A DNA stretch of 36,412 nucleotides from a virus, in the IMG/VR virus record IMGVR_UViG_3300033821_000024, positions 1-36,412 of that record; one strand, written 5' to 3'. The notes below the pieces were generated by a model. The model did not search any database and was not told the origin of the DNA. It was given only the letters and a program-made list of their open reading frames with translations. The position numbers and the translations under genes were made by a program. Below are positions 8,577-36,412 of the stretch, one piece after another (positions within the stretch are counted from its first letter, which is position 1; each line of letters begins with the position of its first letter).

Positions 8577-8627
8577 AACTTTTATAACTTTATAAACTTT
8601 GTAGAACTTTTATAACTTATTTAAGTT
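8577..8627. repeat. AT-rich direct repeats flanking the hexamer array
   Basis: AACTTTTATAACTT occurs twice (8577-8590 and 8605-8618) with a degenerate copy between, followed by an inverted AACTT/AAGTT pair. It abuts the 3' side of the hexamer array on the minus strand and precedes the 58-residue gene. It could be a promoter or protein-binding region; no function is shown. Confidence 0.6.
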
Positions 8628-8836
8628 TATTTAATAGACCCAGACCCAGACCAAGACCAAGACCTAGACCCAGACCTAGACCTAGACCTAGACCTAGACC
8701 TAGACCAAGACCTAGACCTAGACCCAGACCAAGACCTAGACCAAGACCTAGACCTAGACCTAGACCTAGACCTATACCAAGACCCAGACCAAGACCAAGA
8801 ACTATCGAGAATATCAGGTGAGTTAAGAATAATCAT
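8627..8836 (-). CDS. Hexanucleotide-repeat ORF encoding a Ser-(Arg/Trp/Gly) dipeptide array (locus 1)
   Basis: A 69-codon ORF. After a start of about 11 ordinary residues the rest is almost wholly alternating serine with Arg, Trp or Gly. On the sense strand the unit is TCT-NGG, where N decides the second residue (A gives Arg, T Trp, G Gly). It starts 11 bases after the stop of the 87-residue gene, so both should share one transcript. The ribosome site is weak, so translation is uncertain, and the array may instead act as DNA or RNA. The layout is the same as at 24482-24999. Low-complexity protein of this kind would be disordered and strongly basic. Confidence 0.45.
   Translation of the reverse strand: MIILNSPDILDSSWSWSGSWYRSRSRSRSRSWSRSWSGSRSRSWSRSRSRSRSRSGSRSWSWSGSGSIK
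8635..8796. repeat. Hexanucleotide tandem array, 27 units of NAGACC
   Basis: Twenty-seven contiguous 6-base units on the plus strand, each NAGACC. The first base is T in 15, A in 7, C in 5 and never G. Only one unit (8773, TATACC) differs elsewhere, and a degenerate unit follows at 8797. Variation confined to one position of an otherwise fixed hexamer is unusual for simple slippage alone. Confidence 0.95.
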
Positions 8837-8847
8837 ATTCTATCAGC

Positions 8848-9111
8848 TTATATTTGATTTTTTGGAACAGGATGCAGCCATTCACAAGCATCAACAATAC
8901 TAGACTTGTTTACTAAAACATCAGAAACGAAAGGCTCTACTTCGCTGAGAGTTCCATTTTTTAATGCATTGTAAAACCTTCCTGAGTCCGCAATCCAAGA
9001 AGCTTCCTTTAATATTATCTCATCATCTTCAATCGAATCTAAAATGCCGATTAAATGCATTGTTACCGTTCTAATGAAATAAGATTTTCCAACTACCCAA
9101 AATTTACTCAT
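8848..9111 (-). CDS. Small conserved phage protein, array-associated (locus 1)
   Basis: An 87-residue protein with a strong TTAGGAGA ribosome site before ATG 9111. Its sequence matches a widespread phage family I recall by pattern: 'GKSYFIRTVTMHLIGIL', 'ILKEASWIADSGRFYNALK', 'SEVEPF', 'IVDACEWLHPVP'. It also aligns loosely with the 85-residue protein at 24482 (shared IG near residue 20, central hydrophobic/W stretch, G-x-L, DV and a C-terminal SI), suggesting one superfamily; I recall relatives labelled DUF6948. The fold is probably a small beta barrel. No biochemical function is known to me. Immediately downstream is the Ser-X repeat ORF. The promoter carries the operator shared with the ribbon-helix-helix gene. 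Confidence 0.7.
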   Translation of the reverse strand: MSKFWVVGKSYFIRTVTMHLIGILDSIEDDEIILKEASWIADSGRFYNALKNGTLSEVEPFVSDVLVNKSSIVDACEWLHPVPKNQI

Positions 9112-34527: not shown

Positions 34528-36412
34528 ATGCAAAATTATGACTTATCAGAATTTTCTAAACCTAAAAATGATGCAGATTATGATTTGTCAGAATTTTCCA
34601 AGCCAAGTACAAAAAATTCGCCTAAAAAAAATGATGAACTACATTTTGCTCCAATTTTTGAAGACCCGATAACAAGCGCTAAGAATCAAGTTAGTGGTAT
34701 GGATTTAATAAAATCTGGATTAATCGGAGCTGCAAAGGGCGGACAAAACATAAATGAAAGCGGATATAAATTAGCAAGTGCAGTAAAACAATTATTTGGC
34801 GGTGAACCAATTAAGTCGCCAGTCGGTAAAGAAAATTTGGATATTCATAAAATTTTTGGAGGCAGAGAAGACCCTGGATTTCTTGAAAATATGATTGAAT
34901 CAGTTTCGCAATATTCTCCACAATTAGCTTCTGGAGCAATGAGTATCCCAGCTGAAATAGGATTAGGCGCAATATATGGAGCGAGTCAGTCTCCTGATGA
35001 AATGATAAAGGGTGGATTAATTGGCGGCGGATTATCTGGCGCTACTGGATTAATCAATAAACTACTCGGCACAGAAATGAGTCCGATGAAAAAAGGATTA
35101 GCGAGAGCAGCAGCCGGAGCAATTCCTGGCTATATGATGGGTGGATTAAAGGGAGCTGCTACCGGAGCGGGTTTAGGTTTTTCACTTCCATCAATTGCTA
35201 AAAAATTAGGAATTGGTTCTAAAGAACACTTAGGTGAAGAACTGGTAAATAAAATACAACCACAAGAAGCAAGAGAAAGAATGTTAGCCGGTAAACGATT
35301 AGGAACTCCTTTAACTCCGGGTGAAGCTTCGGCTCGACCTGATATAATCGCTCAAGAAGCTGGAATTGGAAAAGTCGGGGAAGCAGCGGCAGAAAGAGTG
35401 AGACTCGGACAAGAAAGGATAAATAAACAAAAAAAAGCTATCGATAAACTATATGCAACGATAAGCCCTTCCGATGGAATCGGTTCGTTTGAGACTAGGA
35501 AAGCAATCAGAGATAAAATAAAAACAATGGAAAAAGAAAGAGAAGAGGCAGCATCTCCATTTTATAAAAAAGCGCACGAACAAACAGTTGATCCAGATTT
35601 AATCACAGCGTTAAGAAAAGAAGATAAAAATATTGCAAATGCAATTGATGCGGCAATGTCTGACCCTAAATATCAAAAAAAAGGCGAGTTGCTTGATGTC
35701 CCATCAAACAGTATAAAAGTACTTGATTATGCAAAACGAAAATTAGATCGACAAATAGAAGCAAATATGCCTAGCCTTACTAGTAAAGGCGACCTTGATG
35801 CTGTCAGAATATTGACCGACTCAAAAAACAGATTGCTAGATGAAATATCTTCATTTAGTCCTGATTACAAAACGGCGCGATCTATTCATGAAAAAATGTC
35901 ATTCCCGATAGATGAAGTAAAAAATAGTCAATCGGGTAGAATAGCCGCTTTAAAAAATGTTGACCTTAAACAAGTGCCAAAAAAAATATTTGATCCATCC
36001 GAGACTGATTTAAAGCAATTAACAAAAATCCGAGATAATGTTAGAAGCCAGAATCCACAAGCTTGGGATACCATCGTCAGAAATGAGATGGAAAGATTAA
36101 TGACCTCTGGAAAAAACAGAGGAATAACAGGAAGAAGTTTTTTTGATACTGTTTTATCTAATGATAGACGATTCAATCAATTTGAAACCGCTTTAGAACA
36201 TAATCCAAAAGCTCTTGGTCAATTGCGTGACATGAAAAAAGCTTGGGAACATTTAATAAATCTTGAAACCCCTAGAACTGCATCAGGATTTTCTAAAACG
36301 AGCATGGACAAAGCAAGATCAGACATACAAGCTTTAAAAGATGCATGGAATGAAACAGTAGGCACAAAAAATCAGATTGAAGTTTTGAATTATTTGTATA
36401 GCGAAAAATGGG
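34528..36412 (+). CDS. Large ejection protein, P22 gp16-position (5' part; continues at 2-292)
   Basis: Runs from ATG 34528, two bases after the previous stop, off the window end; with the segment 2-292 the full protein is about 680 residues (P22 gp16 is 609). The N-terminus has a near-perfect internal repeat, YDLSEFSKPKN and YDLSEFSKPST, a short motif found at the start of many phage ejection proteins. Residues ~120-230 are Gly/Ala/Ile-rich with several membrane-insertable helices. The rest is long charged helices. It would be injected and form or line the DNA channel in the inner membrane. Confidence 0.75.
   Translation, partial: MQNYDLSEFSKPKNDADYDLSEFSKPSTKNSPKKNDELHFAPIFEDPITSAKNQVSGMDLIKSGLIGAAKGGQNINESGYKLASAVKQLFGGEPIKSPVGKENLDIHKIFGGREDPGFLENMIESVSQYSPQLASGAMSIPAEIGLGAIYGASQSPDEMIKGGLIGGGLSGATGLINKLLGTEMSPMKKGLARAAAGAIPGYMMGGLKGAATGAGLGFSLPSIAKKLGIGSKEHLGEELVNKIQPQEARERMLAGKRLGTPLTPGEASARPDIIAQEAGIGKVGEAAAERVRLGQERINKQKKAIDKLYATISPSDGIGSFETRKAIRDKIKTMEKEREEAASPFYKKAHEQTVDPDLITALRKEDKNIANAIDAAMSDPKYQKKGELLDVPSNSIKVLDYAKRKLDRQIEANMPSLTSKGDLDAVRILTDSKNRLLDEISSFSPDYKTARSIHEKMSFPIDEVKNSQSGRIAALKNVDLKQVPKKIFDPSETDLKQLTKIRDNVRSQNPQAWDTIVRNEMERLMTSGKNRGITGRSFFDTVLSNDRRFNQFETALEHNPKALGQLRDMKKAWEHLINLETPRTASGFSKTSMDKARSDIQALKDAWNETVGTKNQIEVLNYLYSEKW
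36279..36412. repeat. Terminal overlap, right copy (equals 1-134)
   Basis: Right-hand copy of the 134-base overlap, lying inside the ejection-protein gene. It carries A at 36405 where the left copy has T at 127. Removing one copy gives a unit of 36,278 bp with an unbroken gene across the junction. Confidence 0.95.

Follow-up and report, generated by a model that had tools for sequence, protein, structure and literature searches.

Two cassettes of one design in a phage genome

What is a run of near-identical hexamers doing 11 nt past the stop codon of a small phage gene, and does it belong to that gene? The locus that raises this question lies in a 36.4-kb virus record with phage-type portal, terminase and coat genes, which was analysed over its whole length (36,412 nucleotides, hereafter the window). 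The first ~134 nt of the window are repeated at its end with at least one difference (1-134 and 36279-36412). Because the ends repeat in this way and an ORF at the end continues into an ORF at the start, the record probably represents a phage genome that is either circular or terminally redundant. A 405-aa ORF with a signal-peptide-like N-terminal start and no Pfam match was also observed at 26350-27567 (minus strand).

The small gene (8848..9111, minus strand) encodes an 87-aa protein, P0001, which on the basis of its ORF, its homologues and an AF2 model was assigned to an Sm-like family, here family A. Beyond it, on the same strand, lies array ORF 1 (8627..8836, 69 aa), which encodes the weak leader MIILNSPDILDS followed by a net basic (Ser-Arg/Trp/Gly)n peptide and does not overlap the gene through ATGA. 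The initial annotation, which was made from the sequence alone, had the coordinates, strand and 11-nt spacing right. The hexamers themselves (8635..8796, minus strand) comprise 26 units, NAGACC on the plus strand and TCT-DGG when read as coding strand, and a single TATACC unit; TRF reported a period of 6, 28.3 copies and a score of 235. On the coding strand, Ser (TCT) alternates with Arg (AGG), Trp (TGG) or Gly (GGG), and elsewhere on the plus strand of the window NAGACC occurs only 15 times. The annotation had stated that only the first base varies, which holds for the 26 NAGACC units and fails for TATACC, where a G-to-T change within the unit replaces Ser with Tyr. Its first-base counts of A7, C5 and G0 were reproduced exactly, and its T15 should be T14 (n = 26).

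The same design occurs a second time in the window. A family-B Sm-like protein of 85 aa (P0002; 24482..24739, plus strand; again identified by ORF, homologues and AF2 model) is followed by array ORF 2 (24736..24999, plus strand, 87 aa), whose start overlaps the stop of the gene as ATGA. Its product begins with MITISMLPYR and continues as a net acidic (Gly-Asp/Tyr/Ser)n peptide, encoded by GGC-[G/T]AT units with in-frame 3-nt insertions (24764..24993, plus strand).

Hexamer arrays are linked to Sm-like genes

To see how general this arrangement is, 80 loci with homologues were gathered from viral contigs per family (A and B), and the sequence downstream was scored for 6-nt periodicity at a threshold of at least 0.7, with 898 other genes of the same loci as controls. 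Such periodicity was found at 68/80 family-A loci and 66/78 family-B loci, against 1.7% of the control genes, and the excess was present only at periods 6 and 12. When distinct genes were counted and an array was sought within 800 nt, 69 of the 75 family-A genes had one downstream, 1 only upstream and 5 on neither side (one further family-A gene lay at a contig end); for the 69 family-B genes the numbers were 62, 6 and 1. The "upstream" arrays proved to be swapped gene orders or tandem cassettes. The link between the array and the 87-aa family is thus far stronger than had been proposed (69/75 distinct homologues vs 1.7% of control genes), and homologues free of any array, which would have spoken against it, are rare (5 in family A, 1 in family B). 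Contig ends less than 300 nt from the gene lay on the array side in 22 cases and on the other side in 7, as expected if arrays break assemblies.

The reverse scan started from arrays instead of genes and scored those with enough flank. Here, 25 of 34 mixed Ser-[WRG] arrays lay beside or in a family-A or -D gene, and 80 of 94 mixed Gly-[YDN] arrays beside or in a gene of family B, C or E; in one case the array was inside the Sm-like gene. Mixed arrays lacking an Sm-like neighbour were therefore a minority (9/34 and 14/94). Monotone Ser-Arg or Ser-Trp repeats were linked to an Sm-like gene in 1/77 cases only. One contig carries a natural fusion, with an Sm-like domain and a Gly-X repeat in a single protein (L300, 4963-5619).

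Several further arrangements were noted among the contigs. In one (L162:2280-3350), a DUF6948-like gene with a Gly/Ser-X array is directly followed by a family-A gene with a Ser-X array, each with its own chemistry. In two others (L218 and L244), genes of family D (GKTITLFCASYIYTGKLEGV...), which is not in Pfam, precede Ser-[W/R/G] arrays. L036 (2483-2968), L343 and L317 encode proteins that join a Gly-[Y/D/N] repeat to a DUF7666 domain (PF24703), which Sm-like profiles did not match, so the repeat peptide apparently forms the tail of another small phage protein there. A 351-aa protein resembling a VWA domain precedes Gly-X arrays whose leader is MKYPKG (L394:440 and 4589; L316). Sm-like proteins are thus not the only partners of the peptide, since some mixed arrays stand beside other genes (DUF7666 fusions, this VWA-like gene).

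Sequence constraint supports translation of the arrays

Most array ORFs overlap the upstream stop or begin shortly after it. In family A, 34/60 cassettes have the array start at -1 (ATGA/GTGA); most family-B starts lie between -7 and -19. A typical array peptide consists of a short leader and about 15-60 repeats. Family-A leaders follow M-N-x-A-V-L-R-x-G-F/Y-D, strictly in about a third, and NFDENQNSYG and TLDG are recurring leader types in family B.

Within the array cores, no in-frame stop was found in 6193 codons (0/2806 in family A, 0/3387 in family B), compared with 194 out-of-frame stops in 12,400 (98/5612 and 96/6788). The missing changes are specific: Trp TGG had become TAG in 0/423 cases, compared with 46 changes of its sister codons AGG, CGG and GGG to NAG (p = 3e-8), and Tyr TAY had become TAR in 0/678 against 15/795 (p = 1e-4). 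This sequence constraint strongly supports the view that the arrays are protein-coding and translated. The other frames (Gly-Leu, Gly-Ala, Arg-Gly) were rejected as real products; they vary with the Ser codon and carry stops.

Codon choice differs freely between phages. Ser is encoded by TCG, AGC, TCT, TCA, TCC or AGT, Gly by GGC, GGG, GGT or GGA, and Arg by AGG in AT-rich phages and by CGG in many GC-rich ones. The selection suspected from the restricted variation of array 1 was borne out in that W, R and G are kept across phages through differing codons. As the W, R and G codons TGG, AGG (or CGG) and GGG differ at the first base, and other phages use other codons, selection acts on the peptide. 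The single variable base of array 1 would then reflect the multiplication of three hexamer types that differ from one another by one base, with selection deciding which residues occur. Avoidance of G at the variable base (plus strand) was rejected as a nucleotide rule: Arg CGG accounts for 259 of 1633 NGG codons and is freely used in GC-rich phages.

Fixed chemistry and rapid turnover

Array chemistry follows the family of the neighbouring gene. All 60 classified family-A arrays were Ser-[W/R/G] and all 63 classified family-B arrays were Gly-[Y/D/N/S]; in an unbiased scan, family-D arrays were Ser-[Trp/Arg/Gly] and DUF6948 arrays Gly-[Tyr/Asp/Asn/Ser]. The median net charge of the array peptide is +9.5 in family A (basic) and -9 in family B (acidic), so that the basic peptide first suggested for locus 1 agrees with both the coding evidence and the family median. 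We infer that the peptide is disordered. Pairing of A and B cassettes with complementary charge in each phage, the situation seen in the window, was considered and rejected as a rule, the second family being present in only 2/50 and 1/50 records.

Unit order and length are far less stable. At 11 Barba phage loci with an identical 231-nt gene part, the array was the same or one substitution apart, save at L010, where its units were reshuffled and it was longer (79 vs 69 aa). Sabo and Ymer, two Pectobacterium phages, have kept the terminator and the leader MSKLIKPEKYG but differ in unit order. Internal block repeats were longer than those in unit shuffles in 27/115 arrays (about a quarter). From these comparisons of close relatives, the arrays turn over faster than the Sm-like gene, with units duplicating while the gene stays identical, which fits the copying mechanism that the initial annotation had offered beside selection.

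Both gene families are predicted to adopt the Sm/LSm fold

AF2 models were built from alignments of 72 (family A) and 62 (family B) sequences and reached pLDDT values of 96.8 for P0001 and 95.3 for P0002. Both models show the same strand-helix order with a helix between strands 3 and 4, and both form the small, strongly bent five-strand barrel of the Sm fold. The best 50 structural matches of the P0001 model were all Sm/LSm chains, the first being the archaeal SmAP 1i8f (Z 9.8, 1.5 A over 65 residues). The P0002 model best matched 3by7, a phage-type Sm-like protein (Z 8.8, 2.5 A over 71 residues), and TIP60, which is built on such a protein. 3BY7 is a phage-type Sm-like protein of putative cyanophage origin and is not known to have an array partner; despite being the best structural match of family B, 3BY7/TIP60 has no profile-detectable sequence similarity to that family. 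TIP60 contains a five-fold Sm-like part (PMC12389965). A search for PDB sequence relatives found none. On these models, both gene-1 families are predicted to carry the Sm/LSm fold.

Family A has the Gly and the hydrophobic pattern of Sm1, G-x-L...h-x-L-x-D/N-A (G22 72/72, L/V/I24 72/72, L34 69/72, A37 71/72). The Sm1 Asp and Asn, which contact RNA bases, are not conserved there, loop positions 28-31 being variable with no conserved D..N. The Sm2 motif [VIL][VIL]x[RK]G is present in 34/72 family-A members and absent from P0001 (KS) and from family B. Given the lack of a conserved Sm1 D..N, we claim only the Sm fold and not full membership of the RNA-binding Sm proteins.

Families A and B showed no direct sequence link in hhalign, and the profiles of both align in register, weakly, with the DUF6948-type family C. 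Families C and E are members of DUF6948 (PF22253; 2e-31 and 1e-19) and precede Gly-X arrays, whereas neither P0001 nor any other family-A member matched this entry above the Pfam gathering cut-off. P0002 had no DUF6948 match, and 24/62 of its family-B members match weakly. Predicted DUF6948 structures were among the viral structural matches of family A. The Pfam entry states no function.

Distribution and gene neighbourhood

Among cultured phages, the cassette occurs in those of Rheinheimera (115 records), Pectobacterium, Iodobacter, Vibrio and Chlorobiaceae. Family-A homologues were also found in 12 bacterial or archaeal MAG contigs, labelled as bacteria and one archaeon, and most of these contain the cassette. 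No plasmid homologues of P0002 were found. In cultured phages and many contigs the neighbours include Bet/RecT-like, Erf, SSB, exonuclease and replication genes, and packaging and HNH genes are equally frequent around family A. Taken without a control set for comparison, the neighbour genes lean toward replication, recombination and packaging.

A two-gene counterpart of Sm proteins with low-complexity tails

The genetics of the cassette (linkage, coding, family-specific chemistry and turnover) is strongly supported by the sequence comparisons. We propose, with a probability of about 0.5, that a phage Sm-like protein and a translationally coupled, multivalent low-complexity peptide together form the equivalent, in two genes, of an LSm protein with a low-complexity tail. 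The cassette is a widespread two-gene phage unit, of which the window phage has two copies. The first gene encodes a small protein of predicted Sm/LSm fold, which would act as a ring that binds RNA or ssDNA; the second, a hexanucleotide array translationally coupled in most phages, yields on the coding evidence a dipeptide-repeat peptide. This disordered peptide, with aromatic or charged stickers on Ser/Gly spacers, would associate with the Sm-like ring and supply the low-complexity tail that eukaryotic Sm/LSm proteins have in the same chain. It may then gather rings and RNA or ssDNA into a phage RNP or ssDNA-protein scaffold or condensate early in infection. The sticker-spacer composition (Arg/Trp/Tyr/Asp on Ser/Gly) and the recombination and replication neighbours fit such a mechanism. 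The array would lengthen, shorten and reshuffle through unit duplication, because selection keeps composition and not order. A wider version, in which several Sm-like families each have a dedicated, fast re-expanding dipeptide peptide of fixed chemistry and jointly form phage RNP/ssDNA condensates as a prokaryotic two-gene Sm and tail, is more tentative, and we place it a little below even odds.

A different role for the same pair is suggested by the poor conservation of the RNA-contact residues. With Sm1 Asp/Asn not conserved and Sm2 present in about half of family A, the protein may have lost any role on nucleic acids, like Rof, which is Sm-like and inhibits Rho via protein contact (PMC11018626). 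The Sm-fold protein could then be a Rof-like protein-binding adaptor and the peptide its ligand or antitoxin-like partner, with a host factor (Rho, a nuclease or a defence protein) as the target. The strict pairing of family and chemistry and the recurring short leader types fit a specific complex, and variable repeat number fits an arms race, but a low-complexity peptide offers hardly any specific contact surface outside the leader. No defence, anti-defence or toxin-antitoxin model came up for these proteins, and we consider this explanation unlikely.

The main nucleic-acid rival is RNA-level autoregulation, in which the Sm-like ring would control downstream genes by binding the hexamers of its mRNA, the peptide being a by-product. 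TRAP binds NAG repeats as an 11-mer ring, and the likeness to TRAP and Hfq lies in a ring protein combined with a repeated short RNA motif: the array stands directly downstream of the Sm-fold gene, and every array keeps sense-strand GG each 6 nt, as NGG or GGN. Hfq binds repeated A-R-N motifs (PMC4104026). In addition, the window arrays fold well as RNA compared with dinucleotide shuffles (z -5.4 and -11.7), and in NGG codons synonymous third-base changes are rarer than second-base changes, although such third-base purity is expected from recent unit duplication. Conserved NAG-type RNA repeats of the TRAP kind were not found; the hexamer varies by phage (TCG, AGC, TCT, TCA, TCC or AGT before NGG) while the peptide is kept, and stops are missing in one frame only. 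Family-A arrays use the most RNA-stable Ser codon in just 6/56 cases. A conserved RNA hairpin was accordingly rejected, single arrays folding well but family-A codon choice not favouring stability; family-B arrays have two codon choices, of which GGC usually gives the greater stability, and codon usage can explain this. The initial suggestion of a DNA/RNA element does not hold as the main role, given that phages differ freely in the nucleotides used and avoid the most structured Ser codon. We regard RNA autoregulation as quite unlikely, and an added RNA role may exist since GG every 6 nt is always kept.

Cassette 2 of the window sits among the clustered late structural genes, with portal/scaffold-like genes on one side and coat genes on the other, and surface proteins commonly show fast unit turnover. 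The array peptide might on this evidence be a virion or host-surface component (an internal head protein, a decoration or an adhesive) with the Sm-like protein as its chaperone. Against this, cassette 1 and those of several cultured phages adjoin early recombination genes (Bet/RecE, Erf, SSB, exonuclease), and no structural family match was obtained, which leaves this role improbable. A neutral slippage array merely next to the gene, for which the unlinked AGCAGG-type simple repeats of the same collection (76/77) might speak, has next to no likelihood and is already refuted by the stop-codon and frame analysis of array cores, together with more than 90% linkage among distinct members of two families in many different phages, the fixed residue alphabet, the alternative codons and the L300 fusion.

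Relation to known systems and implications

Neither Sm-like proteins in phages nor low-complexity tails on Sm proteins are new. Eukaryotic Sm/LSm proteins with low-complexity or RG-rich extensions include SmB/D1/D3, Lsm4 and LSm14/Scd6. Lsm11/SmE likewise has RG/GR motifs (PMC10578488). What these share with the phage cassette is the Sm fold, predicted here, with a dipeptide-rich low-complexity segment of Arg or Tyr with Gly/Ser, joined in one chain by the natural phage fusion. The phage segment differs in being a separate, translationally coupled hexamer-array gene with the alphabets S-[WRG] and G-[YDNS] rather than RG, and the phage cassette is known from sequence and models. By this analogy, the two genes of the cassette resemble, in split form, an Sm protein with a floppy tail.

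The C9orf72 hexanucleotide repeat also yields dipeptide-repeat proteins; it is pathological and read in several frames, whereas the phage arrays keep one frame stop-free with the peptide under selection. A diversity-generating retroelement target would have a reverse transcriptase and a template repeat in cis; no RT gene was noted in the ORF list of the window, and the variation in phage arrays lies between units of one array. We found no literature on such cassettes or on DUF6948 in open-access papers, which is not proof of absence, and no earlier description seems to exist of a conserved split cassette whose hexamer array is translated and turns over fast.

Low-complexity dipeptide repeats evolve too quickly for their sequences to be aligned, which makes them difficult to study. 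In this case, over 100 natural arrays, every one of them linked to a partner with a predicted Sm fold, reveal what selection keeps (a three-letter residue alphabet, the charge sign, the spacer residue and the frame) and what it ignores (order, length and codons). A sticker-and-spacer peptide grammar thereby becomes directly testable in laboratory-grown phages. The cassette also gives a starting point for finding out what DUF6948 and families A and D, which lack annotation, do in phages, and it suggests that the Sm ring and its tail are kept there in two genes.
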